Assembly (NCBI GenBank): GCA_002838945.1
Contig: PGXB01000010.1
Coordinates: 62,001-126,000, forward strand
Length of the DNA stretch: 64,000 bases
Direction of reading: 5' to 3'
DNA from: a candidate division Zixibacteria bacterium HGW-Zixibacteria-1
Lineage (GTDB): Bacteria > Zixibacteria > MSB-5A5 > GN15 > PGXB01
Position 1 is the first letter of the stretch. Each line of letters begins with the position of its first letter. The notes below the pieces were generated by a model. The model did not search any database. It was not told the DNA's origin and was given only the letters and a program-made list of their open reading frames with translations. Positions 10,901 through 34,943 of the stretch are shown here, piece by piece. The position numbers and the translations under genes were made by a program.

Positions 10901-11354
10901 CAAGGCGAGGATGAATATCGCAACCGCCGCCGACGCCGGCCTGTGAAAAATCACCGGTCTGGTCGTCCCAAGCTTCATAGCCGGTACCGCGGTCATCACC
11001 CAGGATGCGGGTCAGTGACTTCATCCAGGCAAAATGAACCATTTCGGTGCCACGCCAATCGACCTGGCGGTTCATACGACCGTTGGACTGATAGTCATAA
11101 GTCGTATAACCAACCACCTTACCCGGAGAGGCCGCATTAACCTCATCAAAACCCAGAGACTGGGTTCCGCCGGGATTATAAACATAATCCAGATCTCTCT
11201 CGGCCCCTGCCAGTTTGTACTTCGGAAGCGAACTGGCCGGTGTCAGTTTGGGACCATGATTCTTCTTGGACTCGTGCATACCGAAGGCAGTAACGGACAG
11301 CAAAGCAAAGATCAACAAGGAGAGGAAAAGAATCGTCCAAAGATTCCTTGTCAT
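7914..11354 (-). CDS. large secreted BNR/sialidase-like protein with C-terminal dockerin pair
   Basis: I place the start at ATG 11354 (1146 residues), because AAAGGAGC lies six bases upstream and a good signal peptide follows (MTRNLWTILFLSLLIFALL). The frame stays open to 11432, but those 26 codons lack a ribosome site. Residues about 30-540 look like a beta-propeller. Asp-box-like turns STNMGASWGS and SDNGGYNWDIS are spaced as in BNR/sialidase-like proteins. Residues about 560-680 form an Ig-like domain, then comes a region rich in acidic and aromatic residues of unknown fold. Two dockerin repeats (AVNILDVTYTIGYLYKGG and TINILDVTYTIGYLYKGG) end the protein. No catalytic sialidase residues could be assigned, so it may only bind. 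It probably has its own transcript, bounded by terminators at 11832-11863 and 7814-7842. Confidence 0.85.
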   Translation of the reverse strand: MTRNLWTILFLSLLIFALLSVTAFGMHESKKNHGPKLTPASSLPKYKLAGAERDLDYVYNPGGTQSLGFDEVNAASPGKVVGYTTYDYQSNGRMNRQVDWRGTEMVHFAWMKSLTRILGDDRGTGYEAWDDQTGDFSQAGVGGGCDIHPRLGQGINYSGYVGLDVGTTGKVNISNHHEEGAGYSSTLWYDFFPGGCFFSPHKSRIPDSFYAYPALEHTGDPEYIWPNHEYHVFGGDTVTHLIAQQGNTQGSSGIAYFRRVGSDTLGAWSYPPMMVDTVDDLGEIVTASRVSGKVCLVWIANLPAVTGGGESVTRGSQRENDIYYMTSTNMGASWGSKINITKSDSSVVGWRAHCDLSALIGTDDKLHVIWDAFAWSPVNGGSFQGWPTAGRLWHWDETTDEKRTIKDFSSWAPPEDGTWCYGGAWNEMSVVKMQLSECDGKFYAVFVQFNDYNAGIYDDCHKDATNFGSVSGTANGELHISVSDNGGYNWDISRNLTNTYTPLCDTTGAVLCEADNWPSIARFGMQVVSGDFTDATIVDPSGGYTGDYFLDVFYVNDRHPGGAVQDKAIWTYNPLKWFRVPCVDPVPNPVLSISPATIDDPTWTKPSIPLDTVIKLENVGNAVLHVTSISANYITPGYTGWISVGNSGPLTISHLSPNFYELSVTLNAGGVVTTDGVGLEGELIIDSDAAGKSLFHFPIYLIVADTVQFPEKAVIRTDCLSISINNAGNIGDGGNYPTGGVNMSYFSDCDTTANVAGQDDNISVYLYEASPFILRINQAGDTILNYYMFDTDWLSKYAMRPTEGLLIDSTSYADYNYGYTGKYLTKDSAIGVEVEYFAPTTPVDCDFIVMKERFYINKGGNLNNVIIGDIFDWDIPSDSGVENGSGFDRGTGTTSRDLMYCYGAEYDADSIENNDCILADQRVGGMAFYNGFRAPWYEGSPVVYGVDSLENPAGPWWTHINDDWVGPTGDFVAGQLYKKVKAMGSSWETWEATNPSMEDSLYQDLNMVSVFGTFNLKTTDTLVFVKILAAEKSGGVSDLQATIDRARAWIAARPDIFSWPSRSEALCCCNLPGDANNNGAVNILDVTYTIGYLYKGGNPPPCPAEADANGNCTINILDVTYTIGYLYKGGAAPKCPTPPCALCTGI

Positions 11355-11493
11355 GTTCTTGCTCCTTTCAAATTTTTTACAAATTCCCAATTGAATCCCT
11401 AAATTCCTCAAGGCATTTTTGGATTTTTTCAAAACGATTTCGAGATTGAATCCCGAACAGAAAATTTTTACAAAAAGAACTTATTTTCCCGGA

Positions 11494-11891: not shown

Positions 11892-14800
11892 TTATTGCGG
11901 CGGAGGCGGCCCCGATTTGTAGAAGTAATTCACCAGATAAATGGCATCCAGCAGGTTGAGAGCAGTGTCATAATTGGCATCGGCCGCCTCACTGGAAACC
12001 GGCGCATCTCCGGCCTTGTACAAGTAGTTAATAATAAACAAAACATCCATCAGATTTAGCAGATTGTCGGTATTGGCGTCACCGCGCAAGGTCTGAATTA
12101 CCCTGTAAGTGGCAGTCATAACATTGCTTCCGCCAAGGTTATCGGTAACGGTGAAATTGACCGTGTATGAGGTCCCGGTCTGAGTCATATTGGGAACAAA
12201 AGTGAAGGCGGCGGTCCCGTTGCCGGAATCGACAAATGTAGCGTATGGAATCAGGTTATCGATGGAGAATGTACATGACCCGCCCTCGGGATCCATCGCA
12301 TGAAGGACATCGACATGTGTGAAATCGACCACGGTCACGATGGTATCCGGCAGTTCGGCCATGAAGATCGGCGCCTGATTGCCGGCCTCGACCACCGTTA
12401 TATGGCCCACCAGGGTATCTTCGGAAACACCATCCGAGGCAATAAATCTGACATTATAGATACCGGCCTGGGTGAAATTGGGATAGAATTGGAAGGTTTT
12501 GCGATAGACAAAGATACCGGTAAAATAGGAATTGACCGGCAGGTTTTCGCCACGAAGCGCCGGCAGGCCACCGTCAGGATCGGACGAGATGACTTCGAAA
12601 GTAAGCGTACCGCCCTCGAGGACGGAGAAATTAAGAGTGTCGCCTGTCAGAGTCGATCCCAGGTACTGGACCTGAAGCACCGGCTTTTGGTTCCTGTTAA
12701 ATACATTTATTTTTACAGGATCAATTACGGTAGTATCCGCAGTGTATATCTCATCAACTGCCATAAATGCAATATAGTAGATCACGGGAATGACAGGATT
12801 CGACGAATTTCCCTGAGTATAATCGGGCGCAAAACTGAAGGATCCGGTCCCGTTACCATTGTCGACAAATGTCATGTTTGTCACATATGTCGAAGTTGAC
12901 GTATACACGCCAACACTTGGAATAGTGCTGTCACGATCCAGAGTCAGCACGGTTATACTAATGACATCACCCTCAAAAATATTATAAGTCAAAATATCAG
13001 GGTCAATCGCAATCAGCGGAGGTTGATTCAAATCGGTAACCGTAATACTAACAAATATAGAATCCTGCAAACCGGGATCATCCGAATCGGTAGCGACTAT
13101 TTTGACGGTATAATTTCCGGCAGTATAATAGCTCGTGGTCCAGTTGAATCTTCCTGTAAAATCGCCGTTGTCGGTGAATGTCGCCCCGGTCGGGAGCCCG
13201 CTGGCAGTCAATGTCGGCGGAACCATATCCACGTCCGAAGAAGTGACATTGAAAGTAATCACGGAATTCTCAGAGCCGGTAATGGCGCTCACCGGTGTCA
13301 ATGATGGCGGCTGCGGGCCGGCATCGGTAATGACAATAACAACAATGATGGTATCGACGAACTCGGCATCGGCGGCCATTATATATACATTATAGGTTCC
13401 GGAATCGGTAAAACCGGGCTGAATGAAGATACTTCCCGTGCCGTCACCATGGTTGGTAAAGGTTGCAAATGTGGGCAGCGAATCAACTGTCAGAGTCGGT
13501 ATCGTGCCATCGGGATCAGTCGCATTGATGGCAATTGTCATGGTATCCGTTTCGACGACATTCGGGCTTGTAATCGGATCAATAACCGGTTCCTGGTTGC
13601 CCGCTTCATAAACCTGAATCAGAACATTTTTCTTGGTGACGTCAATGCCGTCATAGGCCTGGACGACGATTCCATAAAGCCCGGCCTGAGTGTAGGCGGG
13701 ACTAAAGGTAAACATCCCGGTGCCGTCGCCATTATCGACGAATGACGAATTGGCCGGAGCCTTTGAAACACTCAATTGCGGGAAGCCGCCGTCGGGGTCG
13801 GTCGCCGAGACCGGAATGTCGAGAGTTCCGCCTTCCCAGACAGTGAAGGCACTGCCTACCACCAGGACCGGCGGGCGGTTCTCCAGAACGATGGTGATCG
13901 TTACCGGCAGAGTCGCCGTCAGCTGCGGGGCACCCATGTCGGTAGCAATAAAGGTCACACTGATGACGCCGGTTTGAGTCGAATCAGGTGTAAAAGTAAA
14001 GGTTCCGGTGTTATTGGCATGATCGACAAAACTGGCATGGGCGGGCGTGCCGACAGCCGTCAGGAAGAGTCGATGAGCGGCGACCGGATCGGTGGAGTCG
14101 GAAGCAGTAATTGTAAAGGTCAGCGTTTCATCGACCACCACACCAAAAGGCCCGGCCGGTTCAATAACCGGCGGCCGGTTGACATCGGTAATAGTTACCA
14201 GCACCTCATTGGTGGATACGGCCGGAGGACTTTGGAAATCAAAGGCCGCAAACCAGATCGTATCCTGGCCGGCATCGAGATAAGTGGCATGATAGCGGAA
14301 AACAGCGACACCATTACCGCTGTCAACAAAGTTGTAATTTAACATGGTGGTGTTGGCCGTAAGATTCACGCCGGAACCATCGGGATCGGTAGCCGTAACC
14401 ACTATTACCAGCGAATCACCCTCGAAAATAGTCGTGTCATTGACAATGCTCATAACCGGCGGCTGGTTGCCCGATTCGGTAACACTGATCGCGACCAGTT
14501 CCGAGTCGGCCAGAGAGCCATCGGAGGCATAGAACAGGACATTGTAAACGCCGGCCTGATTGAAGTTGGGATCAAAGGTAAAGGTCCCGGTGCCGTCGCC
14601 ATTGTCCACGAAACCGCCATTGGTCGGTATCGATTCGGCAATAAGCCCGGGGATGGTACCATCAGGATCGGTCGCGCTGACATTAAATGTCAGGTTGCCG
14701 CCCTCAGACACAAACTTCGCGCCGATGGCGACCAGAACCGGCACCTGATTGCCGGCATCATTGACCGTTATATTAACTAACTCGGAATCAATATCAATAT

Positions 14801-16598
14801 TATCAGAAACATAGAATGTCACCGGATAGAGGCCGGCTTCGGTGAATCCCGGTGTCCAGTCGAAGGTGCCAGTGCCGTCGCCGTTATCGATAAAGGTAGC
14901 GGTTCCCGGCAGCGCCGAAGTGGACAAGACCAGAGGATCGCTATCGCCATCTGTCGCCGTAACCGCGAAATTGAGATTGACCTGCTCATCGGTTGCGCGA
15001 GGTCCGATTGCGGCCAGAACCGGCGGCTGGTTGGTAGTAACAACATCTATCTGAACGACTTCCGAATCGACTAAAGCGCCGTCGAAAGCCTTAAAGGTGA
15101 CGGAATACGTTCCGGCCTGAGTGAGGTCGGGATTGAAGTCAAAGACACCGGTACCATCGCCGTTATCGGTGAAGGTGGCATTGGTCGGAACATCGGTGGC
15201 TGACAATGACGGCGGAATTCCATCAGGATCGGTGGCGCTGATGGCGAAGTTCAAATTCCCACCTTCGACAACCGACCGCGGGCCGATGGCCGCGAGCACC
15301 GGCGGCTGATTGCCGGCATCGGTAACGGTTATGTCAACCAGCTCAGAGACAGTATCGATATTATCGGTAACATAGAATGTCACAGGGTATACTCCGGCCT
15401 CGGTGAATCCGGGCGTCCAGTCGAAGGTCCCGGTTCCATTGCCGTTGTCAATAAACGTGGCCGCACCCGGCAGGGCGGAGGTATAGATAATCAGCGGATC
15501 GCTATCGGAATCAGTCGCAGTCACAGTGAAATTTAAATTAACCGCCTCAACAACATTCCGCGGGCCGATAGCAGTCAGGACCGGCGCCGAATTAGCCAAA
15601 TAAGTGTATCCGCTGACCAGCGGCGAGGAAGGAAGCCCTGATGCGGTATTGGTGACGACGATGTCCGCCAGTCCGGCTGTTCCGGGCGGTGTGATACCGG
15701 TGATCCGATAAGGCGAAACCACCACGGTCGAAACCAGTGAAGCTCCGCCGATAGCTACTGCAGCGCCGTTGATATCGAAATTGCTTCCGTTAATCGTTAC
15801 GGCCGTGCCGCCGACATAGGAACCGGAACTGGGAATGACTGATGCCACGTTCGGTGGTTCGACCAGAGCGGAGTTGACGGTCATCAGGTCGGAATGCGGG
15901 CCGAGAATGCCCGAACCATTCTGCGCAATTACCATATAGGTGTAACTGTCGGTGCCGTTGACGGTATTATCGACAAAGAAACTGTCGGCAGTCCCGGGAT
16001 TAGCCAGTGAACCGGATGGAGCGTCGATTCTGAAGAACGAGCCGCTTGAGGTCGAGGGCCTGCGGTAGACATGATATGTCTGCCCTGCCATATGGTTCCA
16101 GGTGACTATCACCGACGAGCCGGAAACAGCTCTCCCGGCCAAACCGGTCGGTCTTACCGGCCAGGTTACCGGACCAAGGGTTATATTTTCCTGCTGGAAG
16201 GAGTTATTGGGTATCAGTTTGGATAAGACTGCTCCTTCGCCGTTGGCAACATTATAGAAATAATAATCGTATGGAATCCCGGGGGCCTCGGTCAAATAAT
16301 TCTGGAAATCATCGAACCAGTTGCCGGCGTCATAGCCCGCACCGATGGAAGTTTCAAGGCGAACTTCTTCATCGGTATCACCGAGAAATCCATAGAAATT
16401 GACTTCGCCGTTGACCGGGGTTGTCGCATTGGAATTGGCCACCGTTCCGAATATGGACCCCTGCGCAAAGGCTGAAGATGAATATAGAAGTAACATAACC
16501 AACAGCAGATATAGCCACTTTGGTATTTTGCGTTTTGACTTTTTGAAATGCACGTCGGCACCTCCAGATATGTAAAAAACTATTTTATTCATCATCAT
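11892..16598 (-). CDS. giant secreted Ig-repeat protein with C-terminal dockerin
   Basis: This 1568-residue secreted multidomain protein is probably a surface or matrix component. After the signal peptide comes an N-terminal domain (about 45-145), a fibronectin III-like domain (WPVRPTGLAGRAVSG onward), an IPT/TIG domain (VIPSSGSYVGGTAVTINGSN) and about 12 diverged Ig units of He_PIG type (PVLxxIGP ... GDGTGTFDWTP ... AGxYxVTFxxxD). Two dockerin repeats follow, ending YFYKSGPPPPQ. Two starts are possible. ATG 16598 has AAAGGAGAAAAATG. GTG 16553 has GGAGGTGCCGACGTG and gives a shorter, more usual signal peptide (VHFKKSKRK then the hydrophobic core). The gene starts 18 bases after the preceding giant gene and is the last of a four-gene run. 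Its repeats are more diverged from each other than those upstream. No enzyme domain was seen. Confidence 0.88.
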   Translation of the reverse strand: MMMNKIVFYISGGADVHFKKSKRKIPKWLYLLLVMLLLYSSSAFAQGSIFGTVANSNATTPVNGEVNFYGFLGDTDEEVRLETSIGAGYDAGNWFDDFQNYLTEAPGIPYDYYFYNVANGEGAVLSKLIPNNSFQQENITLGPVTWPVRPTGLAGRAVSGSSVIVTWNHMAGQTYHVYRRPSTSSGSFFRIDAPSGSLANPGTADSFFVDNTVNGTDSYTYMVIAQNGSGILGPHSDLMTVNSALVEPPNVASVIPSSGSYVGGTAVTINGSNFDINGAAVAIGGASLVSTVVVSPYRITGITPPGTAGLADIVVTNTASGLPSSPLVSGYTYLANSAPVLTAIGPRNVVEAVNLNFTVTATDSDSDPLIIYTSALPGAATFIDNGNGTGTFDWTPGFTEAGVYPVTFYVTDNIDTVSELVDITVTDAGNQPPVLAAIGPRSVVEGGNLNFAISATDPDGIPPSLSATDVPTNATFTDNGDGTGVFDFNPDLTQAGTYSVTFKAFDGALVDSEVVQIDVVTTNQPPVLAAIGPRATDEQVNLNFAVTATDGDSDPLVLSTSALPGTATFIDNGDGTGTFDWTPGFTEAGLYPVTFYVSDNIDIDSELVNITVNDAGNQVPVLVAIGAKFVSEGGNLTFNVSATDPDGTIPGLIAESIPTNGGFVDNGDGTGTFTFDPNFNQAGVYNVLFYASDGSLADSELVAISVTESGNQPPVMSIVNDTTIFEGDSLVIVVTATDPDGSGVNLTANTTMLNYNFVDSGNGVAVFRYHATYLDAGQDTIWFAAFDFQSPPAVSTNEVLVTITDVNRPPVIEPAGPFGVVVDETLTFTITASDSTDPVAAHRLFLTAVGTPAHASFVDHANNTGTFTFTPDSTQTGVISVTFIATDMGAPQLTATLPVTITIVLENRPPVLVVGSAFTVWEGGTLDIPVSATDPDGGFPQLSVSKAPANSSFVDNGDGTGMFTFSPAYTQAGLYGIVVQAYDGIDVTKKNVLIQVYEAGNQEPVIDPITSPNVVETDTMTIAINATDPDGTIPTLTVDSLPTFATFTNHGDGTGSIFIQPGFTDSGTYNVYIMAADAEFVDTIIVVIVITDAGPQPPSLTPVSAITGSENSVITFNVTSSDVDMVPPTLTASGLPTGATFTDNGDFTGRFNWTTSYYTAGNYTVKIVATDSDDPGLQDSIFVSITVTDLNQPPLIAIDPDILTYNIFEGDVISITVLTLDRDSTIPSVGVYTSTSTYVTNMTFVDNGNGTGSFSFAPDYTQGNSSNPVIPVIYYIAFMAVDEIYTADTTVIDPVKINVFNRNQKPVLQVQYLGSTLTGDTLNFSVLEGGTLTFEVISSDPDGGLPALRGENLPVNSYFTGIFVYRKTFQFYPNFTQAGIYNVRFIASDGVSEDTLVGHITVVEAGNQAPIFMAELPDTIVTVVDFTHVDVLHAMDPEGGSCTFSIDNLIPYATFVDSGNGTAAFTFVPNMTQTGTSYTVNFTVTDNLGGSNVMTATYRVIQTLRGDANTDNLLNLMDVLFIINYLYKAGDAPVSSEAADANYDTALNLLDAIYLVNYFYKSGPPPPQ

Positions 16599-16616
16599 TT
16601 TTCTCCTTTCCTCTTC

Positions 16617-19600
16617 CTATGGTCCGGGAAAAACGTCAACTTGCGCGGCATTGGCCTGATACGGTTTGCCCGGCTTGACCGGGAAATTGACTCCGAATCC
16701 GGCCGCAAAGCGTGATTCATAACTCTGCGAGCCCGCAATATATCTATTAAGCGTATTGAAACTTCCTGGTAAATTATTCAGCACATCCTGCGCCCTCATA
16801 AAATCGGCCTCCCTGTCAAACGGTATCGACAGGAAGCTGAAGTCGGTTGTCGACGTCGTCACCAGTGAATAGCTGATGCTTCCCGGGGCAGGGACAGAAC
16901 CGGCCACGGAGAAGATTGTCGCCGCGGCGGCGTTGACCTGATAAACACCGCCCGGAACAACCGCGAAATTGACACCAAAGCCGGCTGCAAAGCGCGACTC
17001 GAAATTTTGCGAAGCGCTCTGATAATTATTGACCGTATTGACATTGCTGCTGCCAATGGCCGTAATCAACTGAACGGCGTTGGTGATGCCGGTATTCTCG
17101 AAAGGAACGCAAACCAAATTGAAATCGGTCGTCGCCGTGACAATGATCTGATAATCATACTCGCCGACACGGTTGGAAACATCCGATCTGTTTCCGTAAA
17201 TGTCGAAGGCCACCACGACATAGAAATATTGATGCAAGGTATCGCCGACGACATTGACCCCGTTAATATTAAAGTCGGTAAAGGTTAAAGTCAACGGATC
17301 GGTGGTACCGATAGAGTCGGCTGGCTCCGGTGTGAAATAGGCCGTCGTATCGCGATAGATTATATATCCGGCGACCGTCGTGGGGATACCGTCGGTGTCA
17401 AGCGTTATTTCGCTCCATGACAGATCGATGGCATCGGCATTAATCACCGCGGCCAGATCAGATATGGCCTGGGGCGGCGAAGCATTGATGGCCGTCACCA
17501 AGACCGTATCCGGCAGCGAGAACAGGGCGCCGTCATAAACCGTCAGCTCGAACAGGTAGCTGTCCGGCATCGGCGGCATAAAGCTCGGTGACGGATTGGT
17601 CGGGTCGGACAGGGTCACCGAGGCGCCACTCACCTGCACCCAGCTGTATGTCAGCGGGTCGGAGTCGAAGTCGCTCGAGTTGTTGCCGTCGAGGAAGACG
17701 GTCGAATTGACATAGACATCGAACTGATCCGGTCCGGCACTGGCCACCGGCGGCAGATTGACATGATTGACCGTAATGGTCACAAGCTCGCTGTCAATCG
17801 CAATGCCGTCATCGGCATAGAAGGTTATATCATAGATTCCTGATTGCGTATAGTCAGGTGTCCAGTCGAAGACGCCGGTGCCGTCATTGTTATCGGTAAA
17901 GACCGCGCCGAACGGCAAGGTTGACGTGCTCAAAGCCGGGAACGTGCTGTCGGCATCGACCGCCGAGACACCAAAATTGAGATTAACATTTTCATCGATA
18001 ACTTTCGGCCCGATCGGACTGAGGACCGGCGCCTGGTTGCCGGCATCGCTCACGGTTATGCTGACAACCTCGGAGTCAACCGCTGATGAATCATCGGTGG
18101 CATAGAAGGTAACACTGTAAAGGCCGGCCTGTGTGAACAGCGGCGTCCAGTCGAAGGTTCCGGTGCCGTTGCCGTTATCGACAAAACCGGCGCCGAGCGG
18201 CAGAGTTGATGTAGTCAGAACCGGTATTGACTCTATATCCGTCGCAGAGATACCAAAATTCAAATTAACATCTTCGGTCGTTGTCTGCGAACCGATTGTC
18301 GCCAGAATCGGCAACTGGTTGCCGGCTTCAATTACGGTTATTGTTATCGTTTCCGAATCAACTGCCAGCGAATCATCGGTGGCATAGAAAGTGACATCAT
18401 AAGTGCCCGACTGCAGGAAGGTCGGCGTCCAGTTAAAGGTACCGGTGCCGTTACTGTTGTCGGTAAAGCCGGCGCCAACCGGAAGCGTCGAAGTTGTCAG
18501 GGTTGGGATTGACTCTATATCGGTGGCAGATACGCTAAAATTCAAGTTTATATTTTCAGTCGTCGATTGCGCACCGATTGACGCCAGAATCGGCAACTGG
18601 TTGCCGCCCTCGATAACCGTGATGGTAATCGTCTCCGAATCGACCGCCAGCGAGTCATCGGTGGCATAGAAAGTGACATCATATGTACCGGACTGCAGGA
18701 AGGTCGGCGTCCAGTCGAAGGCACCTGTGCCATTTCCATTATCGACAAAGGCGGCGCCGGCAGGAAGTGCCGAGGTCGTCAGGGTCGGAATCGATTCTAT
18801 ATCGGTGGCGGAAACACCAAAGCTTAAATTAACATTTTCATTTGTTGATTGCGAACCTATTGCGGTCAAAATCGGCAACTGGTTGCCGCCGTCATTGACG
18901 GTGATGGTTACCACTTCCGAATCAACGGCCGATGAATCATCAGTCGCATAGAAGGTCACGAAATACGTGCCCGACTGCAGGAAGGTCGGTGTCCAGTCGA
19001 AGGCACCGGTGCTATTTCCATTATTGACAAAGGCGGCGCCGGCAGGAAGTGCCGATGTTGTCAGGGTCGGAGTCGATTCGATGTCAGTGGCCGAGATGCC
19101 GAAGGCCAGATTGACATTTTCCGTCGTTGTCTGCGACCCGATTGCCGCCAGAATCGGCAACTGGTTGCCGGCTTCAATTACGGTTATTGTTATCGTTTCC
19201 GAATCAACCGCCAGCGAATCATCGGTGGCATAGAAAGTCACCATGTAAATACCGGTCTGCAGATAGGTCGGGGTCCAGCTGAAGGCACCTGTGCCATTTG
19301 CATTATCGACAAAGGCGGCGCCGGTCGGCAGAGCCGATGTGGTCAGGGTTGGGATTGACTCTATATCGGTGGCAGATACGCTAAAATTCAAGTTTATATT
19401 TTCAGTCGTTGACTGCGCACCGATCGCGGTCAGAATCGGCAACTGGTTGCCGCCATCAATAACGGTAATGGTAATAGTTTCGGAATCAACCGCCAGCGAG
19501 TCATCGGTAGCATAGAAGGTGACATCATAAGTGCCGGACTGCAGGAAGGTCGGCGTCCAGTCGAAGGCACCTGTGCCATTTCCATTATCGACAAAGGCGG

Positions 19601-22600
19601 CGCCGGCGGGAAGTGCCGAGGTCGTCAAAGTCGGGATTGATTCTATATCGGTGCCTGAGACACCAAAACTCAAATTGACATTTTCGGTAGTTGACTGCGC
19701 CCCGATTGCGGCCAGTATCGGCAACTGGTTGCCCGCTTCGATGACATTGATTGTAATTGTTTCCGAATCAACCGCCAGCGAGTCATCGGTGGCATAGAAG
19801 GTAACATTGTAAATACCGGACTGGAGGAAGGTCGGCGTCCAGTCAAACGACCCTGTGCCATTTCCATTATCGACAAAGCCGGCACCGGCAGGAAGCGCCG
19901 ATGTCATCAAAGCAGGTACTGACTCTATATCAGTAGCGGAGATACCAAAATTCAAATTGACATTCTCGGTGGTCGATTTATTCCCGATAGTCGCCAGAAT
20001 CGGCAACTGGTTGCCGAATTCGGTAACATTAATGGTCACCACTTCCGAATCAACAGCCGAGGAATCATCCGTCGCATAGAAGGTCACAAAATAAGTGCCC
20101 GACTGCAGGAAGGTCGGTGTCCAGTCGAAGGCACCTGTGCCATTTCCATTATCGACGAAGGCGGCGCCGGCAGGAAGTGCCGACGTGGTCAGGATCGGAG
20201 TTGATTCTATATCTGTGGCGGATATGCCAAAACTCAGATTTATATTTTCGGTGGTTGACTGCGCACCAATCGCGGCCAGGATCGGCAGCTGATTGCCCGC
20301 TTCGATCACGGTAACGGTAATTGTCTCCGAATCGACCGCAAGCGAGTCATCGGTGGCATAGAAGGTAACATCATAAGTGCCGGACTGCAAGAAGGTCGGC
20401 GTCCAGTCGAAGGTTCCTGTGCCATTTCCATTATCGACAAAAGCGGCTCCGGCAGGAAGTGCCGAGGTCGTCAAAGTCGGGATTGATTCTATATCGGTGC
20501 CTGAGACACCAAAACTCAAATTGATATTTTCGGTTGTTGACTGCGCCCCGATTGCGGCCAGTATCGGTAACTGGTTGCCCGCTTCGATGACATTGATTGT
20601 AATTGTTTCCGAATCAACCGCCAGCGAGTCATCGGTGGCATAGAAGGTAACATTATAAATACCGGACTGGAGGAAGGTCGGTGTCCAACTGAAGGCACCT
20701 GTGCCATTGCCATTATCGGTGAATCCAGCGCCGGCAGGAAGTGCCGATGTCGTCAAAGTCGGAGTCGATTCTATATCGGTGGCGGATATACCAAAACTCA
20801 GATTTATATTTTCGGTGGTTGACTGCGCACCAATCGCGGCCAGGATCGGCAGCTGATTGCCCGCTTCGATCACGGTAACGGTAATGGTTTCCGAATCGAC
20901 CGCCAGCGAATCATCGGTCGCATAGAAAGTGACATCATATGCTCCTGATTGCAGGAAAGTCGGCGTCCAGGTAAATGATCCGGTGCCATTGCCATTATCG
21001 GTGAATCCAGCACCGGCCGGAAGGATCGACGTTGTCAAAGCCGGAGTCGATTCTATATCACTGGCTGAAATACCAAAGTTCAGATTCACATTCTCGGTTG
21101 TTGATCGGTCACCGATTGCGGCCAGAACCGGTAACTGGTTGCCGAATTCAGTCACGGTTATGGTAACTTCTTCGGAATCCACGGCCAGCGAGTCATCGGT
21201 CGAATAGAAGGTAACATTGTAAATACCGGACTGGAGGAAGGTCGGCGTCCAGGTGAAGGCACCTGTGCCATTGCCATTGTCGGTGAAACCGGCTCCGGTC
21301 GGAAGGGTCGATGTTGTCAAAGCCGGGGTCGATTCAATATCAGTGGCCGATACGCCAAAACTTAGATTGACATTTTCGGTAGTTGTCTGGGTTCCGATTG
21401 CGGCCAGAATCGGCAGCTGATTGCCCGCTTCATTGACCGAAATCGTGATTTTCTCCGAGTCAACCGCCAGCGAGTCATCGGTGGCGTAGAAGGTAACATC
21501 ATAAGTACCGGACTGCAGGAAGGTCGGTGTCCAGTTGAAGGCACCTGTGCCATTTCCATTATCGACAAAAACGGCACCAGCAGGTAGAGTCGATGTCGTC
21601 AGACTCGGGGTTGATTCTATATCGGTAGCGGAAATTATAAAGTTCAAATTGGTATTTTCATTTGTGGACCGCGCTCCAATCGCCGCCAGAATCGGCAATT
21701 GGTTGCCGCCGTCATTAACAGTAATCGTGACCACTTCGGAATCGACCGCCGCGGTATCGTCGGTAGCATAGAAGGTTACACTATAGATGCCGGACTGGAG
21801 GAAGGTCGGTATCCAGCTGAAGCTTCCGGTCCCATTATTATTATCAGTAAAGACGGCCCCGATGGGCAACGAAGACGTTGTCAGATGCGGGATGGTCAAA
21901 TCGGCATCACTCGCTGAGACACCAAAACTGAGGTTCACATTTTCCGTCGTTGATTTCGGGCCGATAGCGGCCAGAACCGGTGTCTGATTACCGGCTTCGT
22001 TGACGGTAATGGTTACCAAATCGGTATCGGAATAGACACCATCGGTGGCATAGAAGGAAATATTGTACGATCCTGATTGCGTAAATCCGGGTGTCCAGTT
22101 AAATGTACCGGTGCCGTTATGATTGTCCACAAACGTTGCGCCGGAAGGCAGCGCCGTCGTCGTCATAACCGGATTGGTTCCATCGGGATCGGACGCGGTG
22201 ACGCCAAAATTAAGATTGACGCCCTCGGTGGTTGACCGATTGCCGATGGTCGTCCAGACCGGAGCCTGGTTGCCGGTTTCAAAAACGTTTATGTATATCT
22301 GCTCGGAATCGGTGGCAACACCATCCGAGGCATAGAATGTCACGCTATAAGCGCCTGCCTGCGTAAAGTTGGGCGTCCAGGTGAAATTGGCGGTGCCGTT
22401 GCCGTTATCGGTAAAGCCGGCGCCGGAAGGCAGAGCCGAGGTTGTCAATGCCGGGGTTGTCGAATCCGCATCGGTCGCGGAAACATTGAAATTCAGGTTG
22501 ACACCTTCACTGATAAATTTATTCCCGACTGCGGCCAGCACCGGAGTCTGGTTGCCGGCCTCAACGACGGTTATCGTCACAACTTCGGAATCAACCGCCA

Positions 22601-25600
22601 AAGAATCATCGGTCGCATAGAATGTAACGGTATATATACCGGACTGATTGAAGACCGGTGTCCAGCCGAAGGTGCCGGTGCCGTTTCCATTATCACTGAA
22701 TGATGCACCAGAAGGTAATGAGGAACTTGTCAATACCGGTATGAAACCATCGGCATCACCGGCCGAAATACCAAAACTCAGATTGACCCCTTCGGTAACT
22801 GATCTTGGGCCGATCGCGGCCAGAACCGGCGGGAGGTTAACCTGATTGACGGTTATGGATATTACTTCCGAATCGACGACGAGCGAATCATCAGTTGCAT
22901 AGAATGTGATCGAATATGGCCCCGCTTGGGTGAAATCAGGTGTCCAGATGAATGTCTCGGTTCCTGTGCCCGTGCTGCTGAATGTTGCACCGGACGGGAG
23001 CGCCGATGTCGTCAGAGTCGGAATTGTACCATCCGGATCGGTGGCCGAGACGGTGAAATTCAGATTGACGCCTTCGTCAACAATTTTATTTCCAATCGCC
23101 GCCAGAACCGGCGGGAGATTGACCTGATTAATGGTAAATGTAACCACCTCGGAATCAACCGCGGTAGAATCATCGGCGGCATAAAATGTAATATTATAAA
23201 TTCCGGACTGCCCAAAATCGGGTGTCCAGTTAAATGTCTCGGTGCCCGTTCCGGCAGCCGTAATTGTCGCGCCGGTAGGAAGCAGGGAAGTGGTTATAGT
23301 CGGAGTCGATTCTATATCGGTGGCGCTGACCGTGAAATTGATATTAACATTTTCATCGGCCGATTTCGGGCCGATCGCGGCCAGAATCGGCAACTGGTTG
23401 CCGGCTTCGATGATATTTATCGTTACGATTTCCGAATCAACCGCAGAAGAATCATCGGTGGCATAGAACGTAACCGTGTATGGCCCTGATTGCAGGAAAG
23501 TCGGGGTCCAGTTGAATGTCCCGGTACCATCACCGTTATCGGTAAAGCCGGCGCCGGTCGGAAGAGACGATGTAGTCAATGCCGGTATGTCACCATCAGA
23601 ATCGGAAGCACTCACCGCAAAATTGAGATTTATATTTTCGGTCGTGGATCGACTGCCGATCGCCGCCAGAATCGGCGGCAGATTGACCTGATTCACCGTA
23701 ATAGAGACAACTTCCGAGTCAACCGCTGATGAATCATCAGTCGCATAGAAAGTAACCGAATATGTACCCGACTGGGTGAAGTCCGGTGTCCAGTTAAAGG
23801 TCCCGGTTCCACCGCCGGCACTCGTAAAGGTGGCGCCGCTCGGTAAGGCCGAACTTGTAATTATCGGGATGGTCCCGTTGGGGTCGGTGGCGCTTACGGC
23901 AAAATTCAGGTTTGCACCTTCGTTAATCGATTTGGAACCGATTGTCGCCAGAACCGGTGCCTGATTACTGTTGAAGACCTGGATGGTCACAGCTTCCGAA
24001 TCAATGGCCAGTGAATCATCAGTCGCATAAAACTTGACGATGTAAACACCGGACTGCGTGAAGTTGGGCGTCCAGCTAAAAACACCGGTACCGTCATGAT
24101 TATCGGTAAATCCGGCACCATCCGGCAATGACGATGTACTTAGGCTCGGAATGGACTCAATATCGGTGGCCGAAACACCAAAACTAAGATTGACACTTTC
24201 GGGTGCCGACTTAAAGCCGATTGCCGCCAGTACTGGAAGCTGATTGCCGGCCTCTATAATATTTATCGTAACGATTTCCGAATCTACCGCCAATGAATCA
24301 TCGGTCGCATAGAAGGTGACCGTGTATGGGCCGGACTGCAGGAAGGTCGGGTTCCAATCGAAGGTGCCGGTGCCGGTGCCATTGCCATTGTCATTGAAAG
24401 CGGCGCCGGCCGGCAAAGTTGAAGTTGTCAATATTGGAGTTGATTCTATATCGGTAGCGGAAATCACAAAATTCAAATTAACATTTTCGATCGTGGACTG
24501 TGTTCCGATCAATGTCAGCACCGGAGCCTGATTGCCGCCGTCAATGACTGTAATGCTTACGACTTCGGAATCAACGGCTGAAGAATCATCCGTCGCATAG
24601 AAGGTCACGGAGTAATTCCCGGACTGCAAATATGTCGGTGTCCAATTGAATGTGCCGGTATTATTGCCATTGTCACTGAAAGTGGCGCCGCCCGGTAAGG
24701 TCGTATGGGTCAGCACGGCAATAGTGCCGTCAATATCGCTGACACTGATGCCAAAATTAAGATTGATCCCCTCAGTTGTTGACTGGGAGCCAATTGCGGC
24801 AAGAACGGGCGGCTGATTTATCTGGTTGACCGTGATCGTCACGACTTCGGAATCAACGGCTGAAGAATCATCCGTCGCATAGAAAGTAACTGTATATGGC
24901 CCGGCCTGAGTGAAATCAGGCGTCCAGTCGAATGTCTCGGTGCCGGTCCCGGTTGACGTGAACGTCGCGCCGGTATTCTTGGAGCCGATCGAAGCCAGAA
25001 CCGGTACTAAATTAACCTGGTTGACGGTTATCGATACAACTTCGGAATCGACGGCTGAAGAATCATCCGTGGCATAAAATGTCACTGTATATGGACCGGC
25101 TTGCGTGAAGCCGGGCGTCCAGTCGAATGTCTCGGTGCCGGTTCCGGTTGACGTGAACGTCGCGCCGGTCGGGAGCGCCGAGGTTGTTATTATCGGGGTC
25201 GTGCCGTCGGCATCGGTCGCTGATACGGTGAAATTCAGATTGACGCCTTCATCGGTGCTCTTTGAACCGATCGAAGCCAGGACGGGTATTAAATTAACCT
25301 GGTTGACCGTGATTGAGACGACTTCGGAATCAACCGCCGAAGAATCATCAGTCGCATAGAAAGTAACTGTATATGGCCCGGACTGGGTAAAGTTGGGTGT
25401 CCAGTCGAAAGTTTCGGTGCCGGTTCCGGTACTCGTGAAAGTCGCGCCGGTCGGGAGCGCCGAGGTTGTTATAATCGGTGTCGTGCCGTCGGCATCAGTC
25501 GCCGAAACACTGAAATTCAGATTGACGCCTTCATTGATGTTCTTTGCGCCGATAGCTGCCAGAACCGGTGTCAGATTGACCTGGTTGACCGTTATCGATA

Positions 25601-26013
25601 CAACTTCGGAGTCAACGGATGAAGAATCATCAGTCGCGTAAAATGTAACTGTATATGGCCCGGACTGCGTGAAGTTGGGTGTCCAGTCGAATGTCTCGGT
25701 GCCGGTTCCGGTACTTGTGAATGTCGCACCGGTCGGGAGGGCCGAGGTTGTTATTATCGGAGTGGTGCCGTCGGCATCGGTCGCCGAGACACTGAAGTTC
25801 AGATTGACACCTTCATCGGTGCTCTTTGAACCGATCGAAGCCAGGACGGGTGTCAGATTGATCTGACCAACTGTAATGGTTACAACTTCGGAATCAACGG
25901 CTGAAGAGTCATCAGTCGCATAGAAAGTAACTGTATATGGCCCGGCCTGAGTGAAATCAGGCGTCCAGTCGAATGTCTCGGTGCCGGTCCCGGTTGACGT
26001 GAACGTCGCGCCG
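16617..26013 (-). CDS. giant Ig-repeat surface protein, main part after a frameshift
   Basis: This is the long 3' part of a secreted repeat protein whose 5' part is at 25880-27028. The frame is open from the junction near 26013 to the stop at 16617. Its first conventional start codon is a GTG at 25085, inside a repeat and without ribosome site, so this is not an independent gene. It holds units 5 to 33 of a He_PIG-type Ig array. A K319L/REJ-like domain (PPVASAGPDQFDVYVNST), a fibronectin III-like domain and two copies of an 80-residue terminal domain follow (each with ESRFAAGFGVNF, then PGGVYQVNAA or PGKPYQANAA). It has neither dockerin nor type IX-like tail. With the N-terminal part the protein would be about 3470 residues. 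It is probably an adhesin or matrix protein. Confidence 0.85.
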
Positions 26014-26935
26014 AAACACTAAAGTTCAGATTGACACCTTCATCGGTGCTCTTCGAGCCGATCGAAGCCAGAACCGGTACTAAATTAACCTGGTTGACCG
26101 TGATTGAGACAACTTCGGAATCAACCGCCGAAGAATCATCAGTCGCATAGAAAGTCACCGTATATGGCCCGGCCTGAGTGAAATCAGGCGTCCAGTCGAA
26201 TGTCTCGGTGCCGGTCCCGGTCGAGGTGAACGTCGCGCCGGTTGGGAGCGCCGAGGTTGTTATAATCGGGGTAGTACCATCGGCATCAGTCGCTGAAACA
26301 CTGAAATTCAGATTGACACCTTCATTGGTGTTTTTCGCGCCGATCGAAGCCAGAACCGGTACTAAATTAACCTGATTGACTGTTATCGTCACAACTTCGG
26401 AATCAACCGCCGAAGAATCATCCGTGGCATAAAATGTCACCGTATATGGCCCGGCCTGTGTGAAATCAGGCGTCCAGTCGAAAGTCTCGGTGCCGGTCCC
26501 GGTCGATGTGAACGTCGCGCCGGTCGGGAGCGCCGAGGTTGTTATAATCGGGGTCGTGCCATCGGCATCGGTCGCCGAAACACTGAAATTCAGATTGACG
26601 CCTTCATTGGTGTTCTTCGAGCCAATCGAAGCCAAAACCGGTACTAAATTGACCTGGTTGACGGTGATTGAGACGACTTCGGAGTCAACGGATGAAGAAT
26701 CATCCGTGGCATAAAATGTAACAGTATATGGCCCGGCCTGAGTGAAATCAGGTGTCCAGTCGAAGGTCTCGGTGCCGGTTCCGGTACTTGTGAATGTCGC
26801 ACCGGTCGGGAGTGCCGAGGTTGTTATGGTCGGGATGCCTTCGGTGTCAGTTGCGGAGACGCTAATATTAAGATTAACGCCTTCATCAACCGATCGATTT
26901 CCAATCGCATTTAATACCGGTGGTTGATTGGCCTG
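17757..26935 (-). repeat. tandem array of about 33 Ig-like (He_PIG type) units
   Basis: The unit is about 280 bases (about 93 residues). The pattern is NQxPxLAAIGxxSTxExxNLxF, then DIESxPxLTTSxLPxGA, GNGTGxFxWTP, SGxYxVTFYATDDS and AVDSExVTIxV. Units 1-8 (transcript order) form a near-identical group with GTGTETFDWTP and VNQVNL linkers. Units 9-19 are diverged. Units 20-32 form a second similar group with GNQLPILAAIG. Unit 4 lacks 55 bases (frameshift) and unit 8 lacks 87 bases (in frame). Confidence 0.9.
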
Positions 26936-27028
26936 GGCCATGGCCGAACCTGATAAAAAGACGGCCATTGCCGCGATGTATATTAGAATCCTTATATTCA
27001 TACCTCTTATACTTCCTCTTGTATTCAT
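25880..27028 (-). CDS. giant Ig-repeat surface protein, N-terminal part ending in a frameshift
   Basis: This is the 5' part of the giant gene. The 382-codon frame starts at 27028, with an alternative ATG ten codons in (MNIRILIYIAAMAVFLSG) that opens a typical signal peptide ending at AMAQA. Three full He_PIG units follow. In the fourth the frame breaks after NLNFSVSA, and the last 46 residues are out-of-frame repeat sequence. At the break (about 26009-26014) the unit lacks 55 bases present in its neighbours, between two CGGCG copies. Gene length 10412 plus 55 is 10467, or 3489 codons, so restoring them restores the whole frame. The gene starts 15 bases after the upstream stop. Mutation, programmed variation and assembly error in repeats are all possible. 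Confidence 0.85.
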   Translation of the reverse strand: MNTRGSIRGMNIRILIYIAAMAVFLSGSAMAQANQPPVLNAIGNRSVDEGVNLNISVSATDTEGIPTITTSALPTGATFTSTGTGTETFDWTPDFTQAGPYTVTFYATDDSSSVDSEVVSITVNQVNLVPVLASIGSKNTNEGVNLNFSVSATDADGTTPIITTSALPTGATFTSTGTGTETFDWTPDFTQAGPYTVTFYATDDSSAVDSEVVTITVNQVNLVPVLASIGAKNTNEGVNLNFSVSATDADGTTPIITTSALPTGATFTSTGTGTETFDWTPDFTQAGPYTVTFYATDDSSAVDSEVVSITVNQVNLVPVLASIGSKSTDEGVNLNFSVSARRSRQPGPAPRHSTGRLISLRPGHIQLLSMRLMTLQPLIPKL

Positions 27029-27043
27029 TGCCAGTCCTCCGGT

Positions 27044-29767
27044 CTATTTCAGTAAGAGCATCTTTTTGGACTCGGCTCTGTCTCCGACCTCGAGTCTGTA
27101 TAGATAAATTCCGGTTGCGACGCGCTTTCCATAGTTATCGGTCGCATCCCAAATCACTGTATGTCGTCCGGCCGACATTTCTTCATTTACCAGCGTCTTA
27201 ACCTGTTGGCCAAGGATGTTATAGACATTTAATTTCACTTTTTCCATGGCAATTCCATTAAGACCGATTTCGAAATCGATTCTGGTCGCCGGATTGAACG
27301 GATTGGGGTAATTCTGATATAGTTCGAAAGTGGTCGGAAGAATCGGCGGATTATCAGGTTCAGTCGGTATTTCCGTGGCTTTGGCGGTCGACAAAAAGAC
27401 CTGTGAAATTTTGATTTTCGACTTATCGTTGGCCTGAATATCCTGCTTTGCGACGGCCGGGATGCTGATAATATCAGAGGCTCCGGCCGGTATTAATGAT
27501 TCGGGGTTGGCCAGGTCGAAGCTGTTATACATGACAATTTTCAGACGACCATTAAGATTGTCATTGGATATCAATGTGAATTTTTTGTCCGTGAAGGCCA
27601 GTTCCGGCTTCAGCAGATCGATGGCATGGGGGTCATAATCGACCCGCAATTCGATTCCGGCGACATCATCAGGAAATTCCCCGCGAACATTCAGAGTCGT
27701 AAATTTACCGGCCATCAGATTGTCGTAATCCATATCAACAGTGGCATAAACGCCATCATAGGACACCGGCGACGGGGTTGATTCGACCGGAATACCGAGT
27801 ATCATATTAATGATACCAACCAAATCGATGACATTAACGATCGTATCCTGTATGATGTTGGCACAGTCGAAGTTACGTTTCGGGAGGATATTCAGTTCCA
27901 AAATGTGGGCCACAATAGCGGTCAGATCGGCGACGTCAATACGTCCTTCGAGGTTAACATCCCCAAGCCGATCAACCTGAATAATTCCGGAATCGACCTT
28001 GAGAGCCAGCGATGAATCCTGATAGCTCGGGCTGATTGACTCCCAGGCGTCGAAGAAATGCACCCAGTAATCGCCGGGCGTGGCCGATGAATCCATGGAA
28101 AAATAGGCGTTCAATATCGCCTGCGAGGAGCCATCGGCAACCGGCTCGCTGGCCAGACCAAAAGTAATGATCCTCATGACATCCGGTGTCTGACCGAGAG
28201 CATAGACAATGTATTCAGGAATTCGATCCGTTACGTTAACGGAATCCAATTCGACAATAGAAAGTGGAAATTGCATGTCAAAATTAAGGCCATAAACGGT
28301 TCGTGACGTGACAAGATCAATCGGCATTACGATAGGAGTTGTCCCTGGAATACCACCCACAGGCCAGTTGTTGGGACTCTTGACCGATGACGTAAAGAGT
28401 CGATCCTGATCAAGCTCTTTTACTACAACGGTTACTGTCTTTTCACCGGTAGCATTCAAAATATCAGTGCCTCTGAAAGTGATATTGAATGACCCCTTCT
28501 GGCTGAAATTTGGGGTCCAACTGAAAGTGGTTGTAATCGGCCCGACTCCGCAGGGATTTGCAGGAGATACGCTCGCGCCCGCCGGAAGAGTACCAATGGC
28601 GGCAAGACAAAGACTCTGGCCGTCGGGATCAGTAGCGCTAACCGTGAAGGCCAGCAATTCGCCCTGCATAATTTCATAACTTGACTGCGAAACCGTCACG
28701 ATAGGAGCATTGTTTGTGCTGGTGCCTGAAACAGTAATCGTCACCGACTTGGTCACCGGCGCCGCGATACTGTCGGTCAGCTGAAATGTTGCGGTATAAG
28801 TGCCGTTAGCGCTCGGTACCCAGCTGAACTGGCGAGAGACCGCGCCCGCACCCGAAGCGGACGAAAAACTTGCGCCCGCGGGCAGGTTGGTGGCGGTCAA
28901 ATAGATCATATCACCGTCGATGTCGCTGCCGTTGACCGTGAAATTGACCGCGGTACCGGGCGTAACATTATAAGTATCCGGAGAAATCGCCAGAACCGGA
29001 GCATGATTAATTTTGGGCGCCACCCGGAAAAGTCCCCGGGTTTTCATCGGCTCAATATAGAGAAGACCGGTGCTGTCGGAGAATTGGCAGACCGGGTCGG
29101 TCGCGTCATACTGGTTATTTTTCGGTGTAACCCACGTCGTTTGATCAAGAACAGCATTGGGATTGACCACCATCGGAATATACATGATAACATCCTGAGT
29201 AGCCGAAGACGGCAATAGCGGCCAGTTTGAATATTTCAGGGGATCAGGCGCCGTCGGCAAAAATTGAATATACATGACATCGGAACTTCGGGCCTCAGGC
29301 GGATCATTCTTGACATTAATATGACTATAAATCGTATCCGGAAGCTGCCCCGGCAATGGAAACAGCCCCATTTTAATACCACGACCCACCATCTCAAACT
29401 GGAAATAGTAAACGGCCGTATCGCCGGAAGGGAGGACGGCGGCTTGATCAACAACCGGGACAAGCAGCGGGTTGGTGGGTGTCCAAGCGGCTTCCGTATT
29501 TAGCTCGAATCTAAGTATAAAACCGCCCAGCGAACCGTCAGCGGCGAGCTCCTCACTGGTCACCGGGTCCGTCACCACGTGAGTCGTATCATAGTTCTTG
29601 ATTATTATCGGCATCAGGACCGTATCGCCCGGCAAGGCCTGAAAGCCGCCGACAATGACGGTATAATTGGGATCATTAAAGACCGGTTCATTGACCTGTG
29701 AATTGCCATATATAGGCATCAGCAAAATCATCATTGACAGTAATAGCGGGATTTTGACAAATCGCAT
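27044..29767 (-). CDS. secreted Ig, cohesin-like and dockerin-like protein with type IX-like tail
   Basis: The ATG at 29767 has AGAGGTGG just upstream and opens a clean signal peptide (MRFVKIPLLLSMMILLMP), giving 907 residues. An in-frame ATG at 29815 also has GAGG, overlapping the upstream stop, and would add 16 residues. After an N-terminal beta-rich region of about 230 residues come two Ig units (APVLAISPDTYNVTPG and APIVTVSQSSYEIMQG), a cohesin-like domain, a dockerin-like pair (GDVNLEGRIDVADLTAIVAHI and DTIVNVIDLVGIINMILG), a second cohesin-like domain and a FlgD-like tail (YQNYPNPFNPATR, VYNILGQ, ATGIYLYRL, SKKMLLLK). It is the second gene of the four-gene run, 11 bases after the first. 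It probably sits on the cell surface; its ligand is unknown. Confidence 0.88.
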   Translation of the reverse strand: MRFVKIPLLLSMMILLMPIYGNSQVNEPVFNDPNYTVIVGGFQALPGDTVLMPIIIKNYDTTHVVTDPVTSEELAADGSLGGFILRFELNTEAAWTPTNPLLVPVVDQAAVLPSGDTAVYYFQFEMVGRGIKMGLFPLPGQLPDTIYSHINVKNDPPEARSSDVMYIQFLPTAPDPLKYSNWPLLPSSATQDVIMYIPMVVNPNAVLDQTTWVTPKNNQYDATDPVCQFSDSTGLLYIEPMKTRGLFRVAPKINHAPVLAISPDTYNVTPGTAVNFTVNGSDIDGDMIYLTATNLPAGASFSSASGAGAVSRQFSWVPSANGTYTATFQLTDSIAAPVTKSVTITVSGTSTNNAPIVTVSQSSYEIMQGELLAFTVSATDPDGQSLCLAAIGTLPAGASVSPANPCGVGPITTTFSWTPNFSQKGSFNITFRGTDILNATGEKTVTVVVKELDQDRLFTSSVKSPNNWPVGGIPGTTPIVMPIDLVTSRTVYGLNFDMQFPLSIVELDSVNVTDRIPEYIVYALGQTPDVMRIITFGLASEPVADGSSQAILNAYFSMDSSATPGDYWVHFFDAWESISPSYQDSSLALKVDSGIIQVDRLGDVNLEGRIDVADLTAIVAHILELNILPKRNFDCANIIQDTIVNVIDLVGIINMILGIPVESTPSPVSYDGVYATVDMDYDNLMAGKFTTLNVRGEFPDDVAGIELRVDYDPHAIDLLKPELAFTDKKFTLISNDNLNGRLKIVMYNSFDLANPESLIPAGASDIISIPAVAKQDIQANDKSKIKISQVFLSTAKATEIPTEPDNPPILPTTFELYQNYPNPFNPATRIDFEIGLNGIAMEKVKLNVYNILGQQVKTLVNEEMSAGRHTVIWDATDNYGKRVATGIYLYRLEVGDRAESKKMLLLK

Positions 29768-29826
29768 TACCCACCTCTCGGTATTATCATTTTTGAATAT
29801 TTTTTCCCTGTTCATATATCAATACC

Positions 29827-32348: not shown

Positions 32349-34943
32349 TTACTTCAGCATTACCATCTTCTCTGTAGCCGAGAAAGCACCGGCCTGAGCA
32401 CGATAGAAGAATACACCTGATCCGACCTGTGAGCCGTCGAATTCGACAGTCACAATACCGGCTTCACTGGTGCCACTGTAGTTCGCAACCTTCTGACCAA
32501 GGACGTTATAAACGTCGATCGACCAGTCGGCGGCAAGCGGCAGAGACATCTCAATGGTGGTAGCCGGGTTGAACGGGTTAGGATAGTTCTTCAGGCTGAA
32601 ATTGGCCGGAAGTATCTTAGCTGTGTAGCCAATACCATTGTAGTCGGCAGCTTCAACCGAAATGAGCTCGCCGTTGGTATTGATGACATTACCGGAGGCA
32701 GTCATGCCTTTTTCAAAGCTGTAAACCAGAGCGACGGTGTTACCATCGATCATTCCGGTCGCCAGCTCCATACCGGCAGCGCCACTACCCAGAGTCACCG
32801 GGACATCGCCGGCCAACACGAAGTAGGCGGCGCCGACTTCACTGTTGAGCACAACACTGTGGCCATCGGCAACAGCGTTCAGGACGATGTTTGGGTTTTC
32901 TTTCGGCAGCGGAAGGGCATCACCAACGATGACACGAATGAGATAAACGAGGTCGGCAACCGTCAGAGCGATACCGTCGCCATTGATCTCAGTCGCAGCC
33001 TTCTGACCTTCATAGTTGACTGTGAAGGCAGCGGGGCCATAGATGAAGTAGTTGGTGAACACAACCGCGTCCGCGATTTCGTTGGCAACGCCGTTCAAGT
33101 TGACGTCGCCGCGGGCATCGATCTCATCCGTTGAGATAATATCAACGCCGCCGCCATAGAAGTATACGAAATCAGCCGGTACCGGCTTGTCAGGAAGCGG
33201 ATTCACGAAGCATTCTTCCTGAGCGCCGAAATAAGTCGGGAATCCGTACAGCGGATTGGTGACTTCAATATAAGGATTGCCGTTGTACCAGAAGACACCC
33301 AGTGACAAACCGGTGGTGACTTCAAGCGGACTGGACGATCTGTAGTTGAAAGCTATGGCGTTGTCGCCACAATCCATCCAGAAGAAATTCACCGGAGCGA
33401 ACATGCCGGCGACATTATAGTTATTCGAGACCAGGAAGTCGAGGGTGAACAGGACTGTCCCGCCCGGAAGAACCATAATGGTCGGATTGTGCGGACCATC
33501 GTTGTATTCAGCCATACCGACGACACGGAGCAGGCCGCTCGGGCAGCCATTGCCGCAGTTGCCGTTATAGTTGTAACGATAGGTGAAGTATTCCCATTCA
33601 TTGGCGCCCGGAATATCAAAGATAGCGCCGGGGATCGCGCCAACAAACGCCAGCACGGAAGGATCATAGCCGATCAGCATGTCAAAGCCGAGCAGGTTCT
33701 CGGAACCTTCTTCGACGGTGACATCGACATAAGCATGATGACCCTGGAGCTGACCATGGATCTTCTCGATGACGATCTTGAACGGAACTTCACTGATGAC
33801 ACGGAGTGTAAAGGTGCACTCTGAGAATTGACCGGCACAGTCAGTCACACGAACGGTGACGGTCCAGTCACCATCATCATCGGTTACCGGCGAAGCAGTT
33901 ACAAGACCACTGTTATTAACAGTTACTGAACCCCCAAAAGTACCGGGACCAACTATTGATTCGACGGTCCAGGCTTTGGTATCACCCAGGTTGGCATCGG
34001 TAGCGGTAAACTGCAGGGTCTTGGTCGCGCCAGTACCCACGGTCAGTACCGAACCGCATCCGCCGCCAATAACCGGTGGTGTATCCAGAACATTAACCGT
34101 GAAAGCACATTCCGTGAAATCACTGTGCTCGGTATCCTGGACGCCGACGACGACATCATGGGAACCGACCTGCGCACAGGTAGGATTGAATGTCCAGACA
34201 CCGGATGTCGCAACAATCGCGCCGGGACCGGAAATCAGGGCAAAGTTCAGAGGAAGATTGCCTTCCACATCGGTCGCATTGAAATCATAATTGAAGCCAA
34301 CATGGAACTGAGCGGACAACTCCACTGTCGGGCAGTTGGAAAATTCCGCATTCACGTTCGGCTGCTTCTTGATGGTCATGCAATACGGGCCGCCAAATGT
34401 CGGGACTGGATCTTCGAACAACCAGTCATACTTTCCCGGAGGAACCTGATTCGGGATACTGCAGCTGTCGATACAGAATGTAGCGAGCTGGGTAGGATCC
34501 AGAGCGGGCGCCGTGAAAGTAAAGATAAAGCGAGGCACCATTGGAGCGCCATTGGGCATACCGGCAATACCGGAACCGGTCCAGTTTACGGTGTCAGCCA
34601 CCGCACCGTTCCAGCCCCAATACGCGAATTCATTCATCAGGGCCCACCAGGCACTGCCGGCTTCAAAGCCGTTTAATCCCACAGGATTGTTGGTTGTCCA
34701 GGTAGTCGCATCACCGCTCATGTAAAATGTAAGCGGGATACTCATACCGGTGCGATCAAAACCATCCGGATTGTCCAAAGAAAGAGTAAGGGTGAACGTA
34801 GCGCCCGCCTTAATATGGTCGGCGCCGTCGTTCCAAATCGCAGTAGTTGGACCAAATTCATGCTGGATGGTCATCGCGTTTGCTAGCCCAAAAGAAAGAA
34901 GAATAATCGAAGCGAATACGAATGCAAACAAAACGCGTTTCAT
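32349..34943 (-). CDS. secreted cohesin/dockerin-like protein with type IX-like tail
   Basis: This is an 864-residue secreted protein. The signal peptide (MKRVLFAFVFASIILLSFG, then LANA) is followed by an N-terminal domain with DTVNWTGSGI, FCIDSCSIPN and YDWLFED, clearly related to the 312-residue protein at 3896-4834. Next come two cadherin/Ig-like domains (about 205-395), a cohesin-like domain (about 400-560, VDVTVEEGSENLLGFDMLIG) and a split dockerin-like pair (ARGDVNLNGVANEIADAVVF and EINGDGIALTVADLVYLIRV). Another beta domain leads to a FlgD-like tail (KNYPNPFNPATT, VYNVLGQ, GSGVFFYRA, ATEKMVMLK). AGGAG lies six bases before the ATG. The architecture after the N-domain parallels the proteins at 29827 and 27044. 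The function is probably structural or binding. Confidence 0.87.
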   Translation of the reverse strand: MKRVLFAFVFASIILLSFGLANAMTIQHEFGPTTAIWNDGADHIKAGATFTLTLSLDNPDGFDRTGMSIPLTFYMSGDATTWTTNNPVGLNGFEAGSAWWALMNEFAYWGWNGAVADTVNWTGSGIAGMPNGAPMVPRFIFTFTAPALDPTQLATFCIDSCSIPNQVPPGKYDWLFEDPVPTFGGPYCMTIKKQPNVNAEFSNCPTVELSAQFHVGFNYDFNATDVEGNLPLNFALISGPGAIVATSGVWTFNPTCAQVGSHDVVVGVQDTEHSDFTECAFTVNVLDTPPVIGGGCGSVLTVGTGATKTLQFTATDANLGDTKAWTVESIVGPGTFGGSVTVNNSGLVTASPVTDDDGDWTVTVRVTDCAGQFSECTFTLRVISEVPFKIVIEKIHGQLQGHHAYVDVTVEEGSENLLGFDMLIGYDPSVLAFVGAIPGAIFDIPGANEWEYFTYRYNYNGNCGNGCPSGLLRVVGMAEYNDGPHNPTIMVLPGGTVLFTLDFLVSNNYNVAGMFAPVNFFWMDCGDNAIAFNYRSSSPLEVTTGLSLGVFWYNGNPYIEVTNPLYGFPTYFGAQEECFVNPLPDKPVPADFVYFYGGGVDIISTDEIDARGDVNLNGVANEIADAVVFTNYFIYGPAAFTVNYEGQKAATEINGDGIALTVADLVYLIRVIVGDALPLPKENPNIVLNAVADGHSVVLNSEVGAAYFVLAGDVPVTLGSGAAGMELATGMIDGNTVALVYSFEKGMTASGNVINTNGELISVEAADYNGIGYTAKILPANFSLKNYPNPFNPATTIEMSLPLAADWSIDVYNVLGQKVANYSGTSEAGIVTVEFDGSQVGSGVFFYRAQAGAFSATEKMVMLK

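Follow-up and report, generated by a model that had tools for sequence, protein, structure and literature searches.

Repeat-rich surface-protein genes can be broken in bacteria and can also be broken on the way to a genome sequence. In one Bartonella henselae strain, a 262-bp deletion in badA causes a frameshift, as long reads have shown (PMC8859334). Work on the curation of MAGs, in turn, describes gaps in scaffolds, local misassemblies, and incorrect repeat counts as common, and these lead to wrong protein-coding sequences (PMC7111523). The window analyzed here, 64,000 nucleotides spanning positions 62001-126000 of contig C10 in a Zixibacteria MAG with 82 contigs (G000), contains a giant repeat gene for which both explanations of a frame break have to be weighed.

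The gene (16617..27028, minus strand) consists of 33 He_PIG (putative Ig) repeat units, two of them truncated, and is frame-broken as assembled. Its 5' open frame (25880..27028, minus strand; 382 aa) covers a signal-like N terminus, units 1-3, and the start of unit 4, and closes with a stop at 25882-25880, leaving a 382-codon ORF. The 3' open frame (16617..26018, minus strand; 3133 aa) begins just upstream of a junction in unit 4 and ends at the gene's stop. Translation of the assembled gene gave zero stops from 26021 to 16619, so the downstream frame stays open as the original prediction held, and no ATG, GTG, or TTG start occurs in this frame before 25085. In a Pfam profile search, He_PIG (PF05345) reached 467.5 bits over 20 stretches in the downstream part and 69.8 bits over three stretches in the upstream part, compared with a gathering score of 24; multiple domains above this score place the product among He_PIG Ig-repeat proteins. 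The N terminus, judged by eye, resembles a Sec-type signal, and the product is most likely a putative secreted surface protein. The region after the array (~290 residues) is conserved and has no match in Pfam. On either side of the break, units differ from one another chiefly in the third base of codons, and both parts therefore have the look of coding sequence under constraint. As biology, we regard the locus as an ordinary conserved, uncharacterised Ig-repeat protein.

Unit lengths within the array range from 279 to 288 bp, except in unit 4 (25851..26077, minus strand; 227 bp) and unit 8 (24810..25004, minus strand; 195 bp). The original prediction had described a loss of 55 bases from unit 4 between two CGGCG copies, and this is what we found; the gene frame is split at that point. 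The CGGCG of the junction lies at 26013-26009, within GTGTTT-CGGCG-CGACGTTC (~26018-26001), a sequence with a single occurrence. The accompanying length arithmetic was also correct, as 10,412 bp plus 55 gives 10,467, or 3489 codons including the stop. When 55-bp deletions were placed at random in intact units, ~1% had a 5-bp microhomology, so the unit-4 junction is homology-guided. Unit 8, the second truncated unit, is located 1 kb downstream and lacks 87 bp, with ACC microhomology, and its right breakpoint falls on the same base as that of unit 4. This second loss had been overlooked because it is in frame, and annotation would miss it for the same reason.

From their junctions onward, units 4 and 8 are identical for exactly 99 bp. 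The first copy of this repeat (25915..26013, minus strand) starts at the unit-4 junction and the second (24874..24972, minus strand) at the unit-8 junction, and no longer exact repeat exists in the gene or in the whole 153,037-bp contig C10. Among 94 contig tips compared, 327 tip pairs share a block and then diverge, with the inner edge mostly 92-99 bp from the tip; a single edge each lay deeper, at 100 and at 180 bp, and a near-whole match reached 600. Because these edges lie mostly at 92-99 bp and practically never deeper, the contig-tip overlap of the assembler is 99 bp. Tips of this length fit a maxK of 99 (metaSPAdes, MEGAHIT) or maxK-1 (IDBA_UD, maxK 100) (PMC10914622). The repeat at both junctions thus has exactly the tip-overlap length, and we presume that its two copies are contig-tip nodes.

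Repeats of this kind were rare elsewhere in the genome. In the ~567 kb sampled for direct repeats, exact 99-bp copies outside C10 were present only in C2 and C29, each time spanning a join with an N gap, and the other sampled stretches outside C10 were free of exact direct repeats of at least 40 bp. In C2, two pieces with an identical 99-bp start are joined by 18 Ns (C2:2763-2780). The C2 pieces also have 91- and 52-bp blocks in common at equal spacing, and one of them may be a variant copy. In C29, 31 Ns (C29:46852-46882) link a 46,851-bp piece to another one, and the 99 bp that both carry stand at the end of the latter; this join is located at dockerin-like coding sequence. In a search of the bin, the beginning of the 99-bp node was found only at both junctions and, with one mismatch, in unit 7. 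Seven small contigs were read as N, and the missing repeat piece could lie in them or be unbinned. Many contigs of this MAG end in few repeat families, one of which is common to ~17 tips, so the bin lacks multi-copy elements.

Contigs in the assembly are listed by decreasing length, with the exception of C2, C10, C16, C24, C29, C31, and a few small ones, and these out-of-order contigs are too long for their rank. The 46,851 bp of C29 before its N gap fit the slot that the contig occupies (47,199-46,359), which indicates that the length-order anomaly marks later joining. The slot of C10 is 86,011-99,099 bp, and cutting this contig at the 99-bp nodes leaves 86,972 or 88,013 bp, both of which fit, as expected if this contig had been changed, at a place that agrees with the junctions, once the contigs had been sorted by length. 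About 17% of random C10 positions would fit the slot by chance; we consider this evidence modest alone and strong in combination with the 99-bp identity and the common breakpoint. The idea that C10 was instead joined at an insertion element at some other place was rejected, as the interior contains no tip sequence of another contig and no N run. A search for N-free joins in the sampled stretches of C2, C16, C24, and C31 revealed no marker.

Homologues of the C-terminal region were found in 14 loci, mostly in Zixibacteria MAGs, with 53-79% identity. At all 14, the array reached the edge of the stretch first fetched, and for most this edge is a contig end, suggesting that such arrays are generally hard to assemble. 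The comparison with related genomes proposed alongside the original prediction turned up intact units and an unbroken gene: the ~190 units in the long stretches of relatives are all 93-96 aa, with no partial unit, and in the G002 orthologue 5215 codons form one open frame that includes a signal-like N terminus as well as the conserved C-terminal region. In G001, which belongs to the same genus, the array is broken over contigs, with the gene start on C74 and the next part on C354. The latter contig starts in the unit-8 orthologue at a point that corresponds to window position 24967, which leaves 5 bp to the unit-8 junction.

The surroundings of the gene are also shared with relatives. Its upstream neighbour (27044..29815, minus strand), a He_PIG/Big_9 protein with a FlgD_ig or weak Por_Secre_tail C terminus, likewise precedes the orthologue in G001 and in G002, where its homologue adjoins the array gene. 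A homologue of the downstream neighbour (11892..16598, minus strand), a Big_9/Cadherin_5/dockerin protein, comes after the array in most relatives. The cluster of FlgD_ig-tailed protein, He_PIG array, and Big_9/dockerin protein (11892-29815, minus strand) is wholly or partly kept in several Zixibacteria MAGs. The downstream neighbour is one of several dockerin type I proteins in succession (5160-7574, 7914-11432, and 11892-16598, minus strand), one of which has a subtilase domain, and a protein at 32349-34943 carries a Por_Secre_tail together with a cohesin match that is weak and below the cutoff.

Together, the 99-bp tips, the length slot, the twin truncation, the intact relatives, and the start of the G001 contig strongly favour an assembly origin. 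We put at roughly 87% the probability that unit 4 lost its 55 bp and unit 8 its 87 bp only in the assembly, as artefacts of two contig joins. The MAG would be of short-read type, from a de Bruijn assembler with a 99-bp contig-tip overlap, and at a branch node within the array, near-identical Ig units would have interrupted the contig. Two pieces with an identical 99-bp branch-node start would later have been chained to the upstream piece, and the true intervening sequence before the node (55 and 87 bp) would have been dropped at both joins, perhaps with whole units as well. We infer that the joins lie exactly at the unit-4 and unit-8 junctions and that reads would not support them, and likewise the program step that made them. 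The 1140 bp between the two presumed joins (24874..26013, minus strand) would then be a separate contig piece, in which the assembled number and order of units are probably not reliable. In the living bacterium, the gene is probably intact and the break a computer error; a single open frame would most likely encode a secreted Ig-repeat protein of at least roughly 3500 residues. The original prediction had named assembly collapse as one possible meaning of the break; this idea is strongly favoured in the form of a contig join with lost sequence, but not as collapse of whole units, since neither 55 nor 87 bp corresponds to a whole number of units.

Several observations run against an artefact. 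The C10 joins carry no Ns, unlike those in C2 and C29, and the upstream pieces at both joins do not have a 99-bp tip in common, so the graph would have been more complex than one simple node. A junction in a pure de Bruijn contig needs read support, and a scaffolding or gap-closing step must therefore be assumed. The 5-bp microhomology, moreover, would equally be left by slipped-strand deletion. One or more real, recent deletions by slippage or recombination in the sampled population, with the gene inactivated or polymorphic among strains, would agree with the rarity of the CGGCG microhomology, with the lack of any other obvious frame break in the rest of the window, and with the known susceptibility of repeat adhesins to such events (badA, PMC8859334). 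We nevertheless consider this unlikely, as two independent events with the same right breakpoint would be needed in one array, compared with zero truncations among the units of relatives, and the common stretch would equal the assembly overlap by coincidence in a contig that also stands out of length order. A bolder reading, which is very unlikely, would take both truncations as real and the CGGCGCGACG site of the Ig unit as a hot spot repeatedly cut to the same base; the in-frame and frame-breaking versions of the unit that result would switch off a giant surface protein of Zixibacteria.

Functional on/off (phase) variation, in which a deletion allele coexists with intact alleles, was a further suggestion of the original prediction, and nothing was found in its support. 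An array of similar units could recombine, and the frame is open on either side of the break, but the junction has only CGGCG in place of a short simple repeat, and C10 contains no exact inverted repeats reaching 50 bp, so the reversible repeat (SSR or invertible element) of a phase-variable switch is missing. Unless another unit acts as donor for conversion, 55 bp lost between 5-bp repeats are not easily regained; the assembly contains one allele and no second one was seen, and the assembly signature already accounts for the data; we regard such switching as extremely improbable. The same low probability applies to a decayed pseudogene, or to a programmed bypass that joins both frames in translation. 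A single break in a 10.4-kb gene could suggest either, yet the many further downstream breaks that the original prediction associated with an old pseudogene were absent up to the gene's stop, the third-position bias of unit differences holds on either side of the break, and orthologues are unbroken. The homologous left part of unit 3 shows no structure above chance that would favour bypass, and a hairpin-driven deletion was rejected because the folding of this part is only slightly stronger than that of shuffled sequences (z -1.5).

Taken at face value, breaks of this kind would be recorded as pseudogenes or as phase variation. Comparing the repeat beside a break with the tip-overlap length, together with contig order, offers a cheap test for apparent breaks in repeat-rich MAG genes. 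Among described systems, the array resembles the giant Ig-like adhesin of Mobiluncus mulieris (PMC10619420) in being a giant surface protein with tandem Ig-like domains, a likeness that goes by the description of that protein; cross-linked domains are described for the Mobiluncus protein. Like badA of Bartonella (PMC8859334), it is a long surface-protein repeat array, hard for short reads, of a type in which frame-shifting deletions are known. However, badA encodes a trimeric autotransporter and its deletions come from long reads, whereas the protein here is of a different class and its break is seen in an assembly. The errors described for de Bruijn assemblies and MAGs (COBRA, PMC10914622; Chen et al. 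2020, PMC7111523) share with this locus the exact tips and the duplicated tip at joins. In contrast with those described joins, the ones proposed here contain no Ns, have lost 55 and 87 bp, and look like clean deletions.
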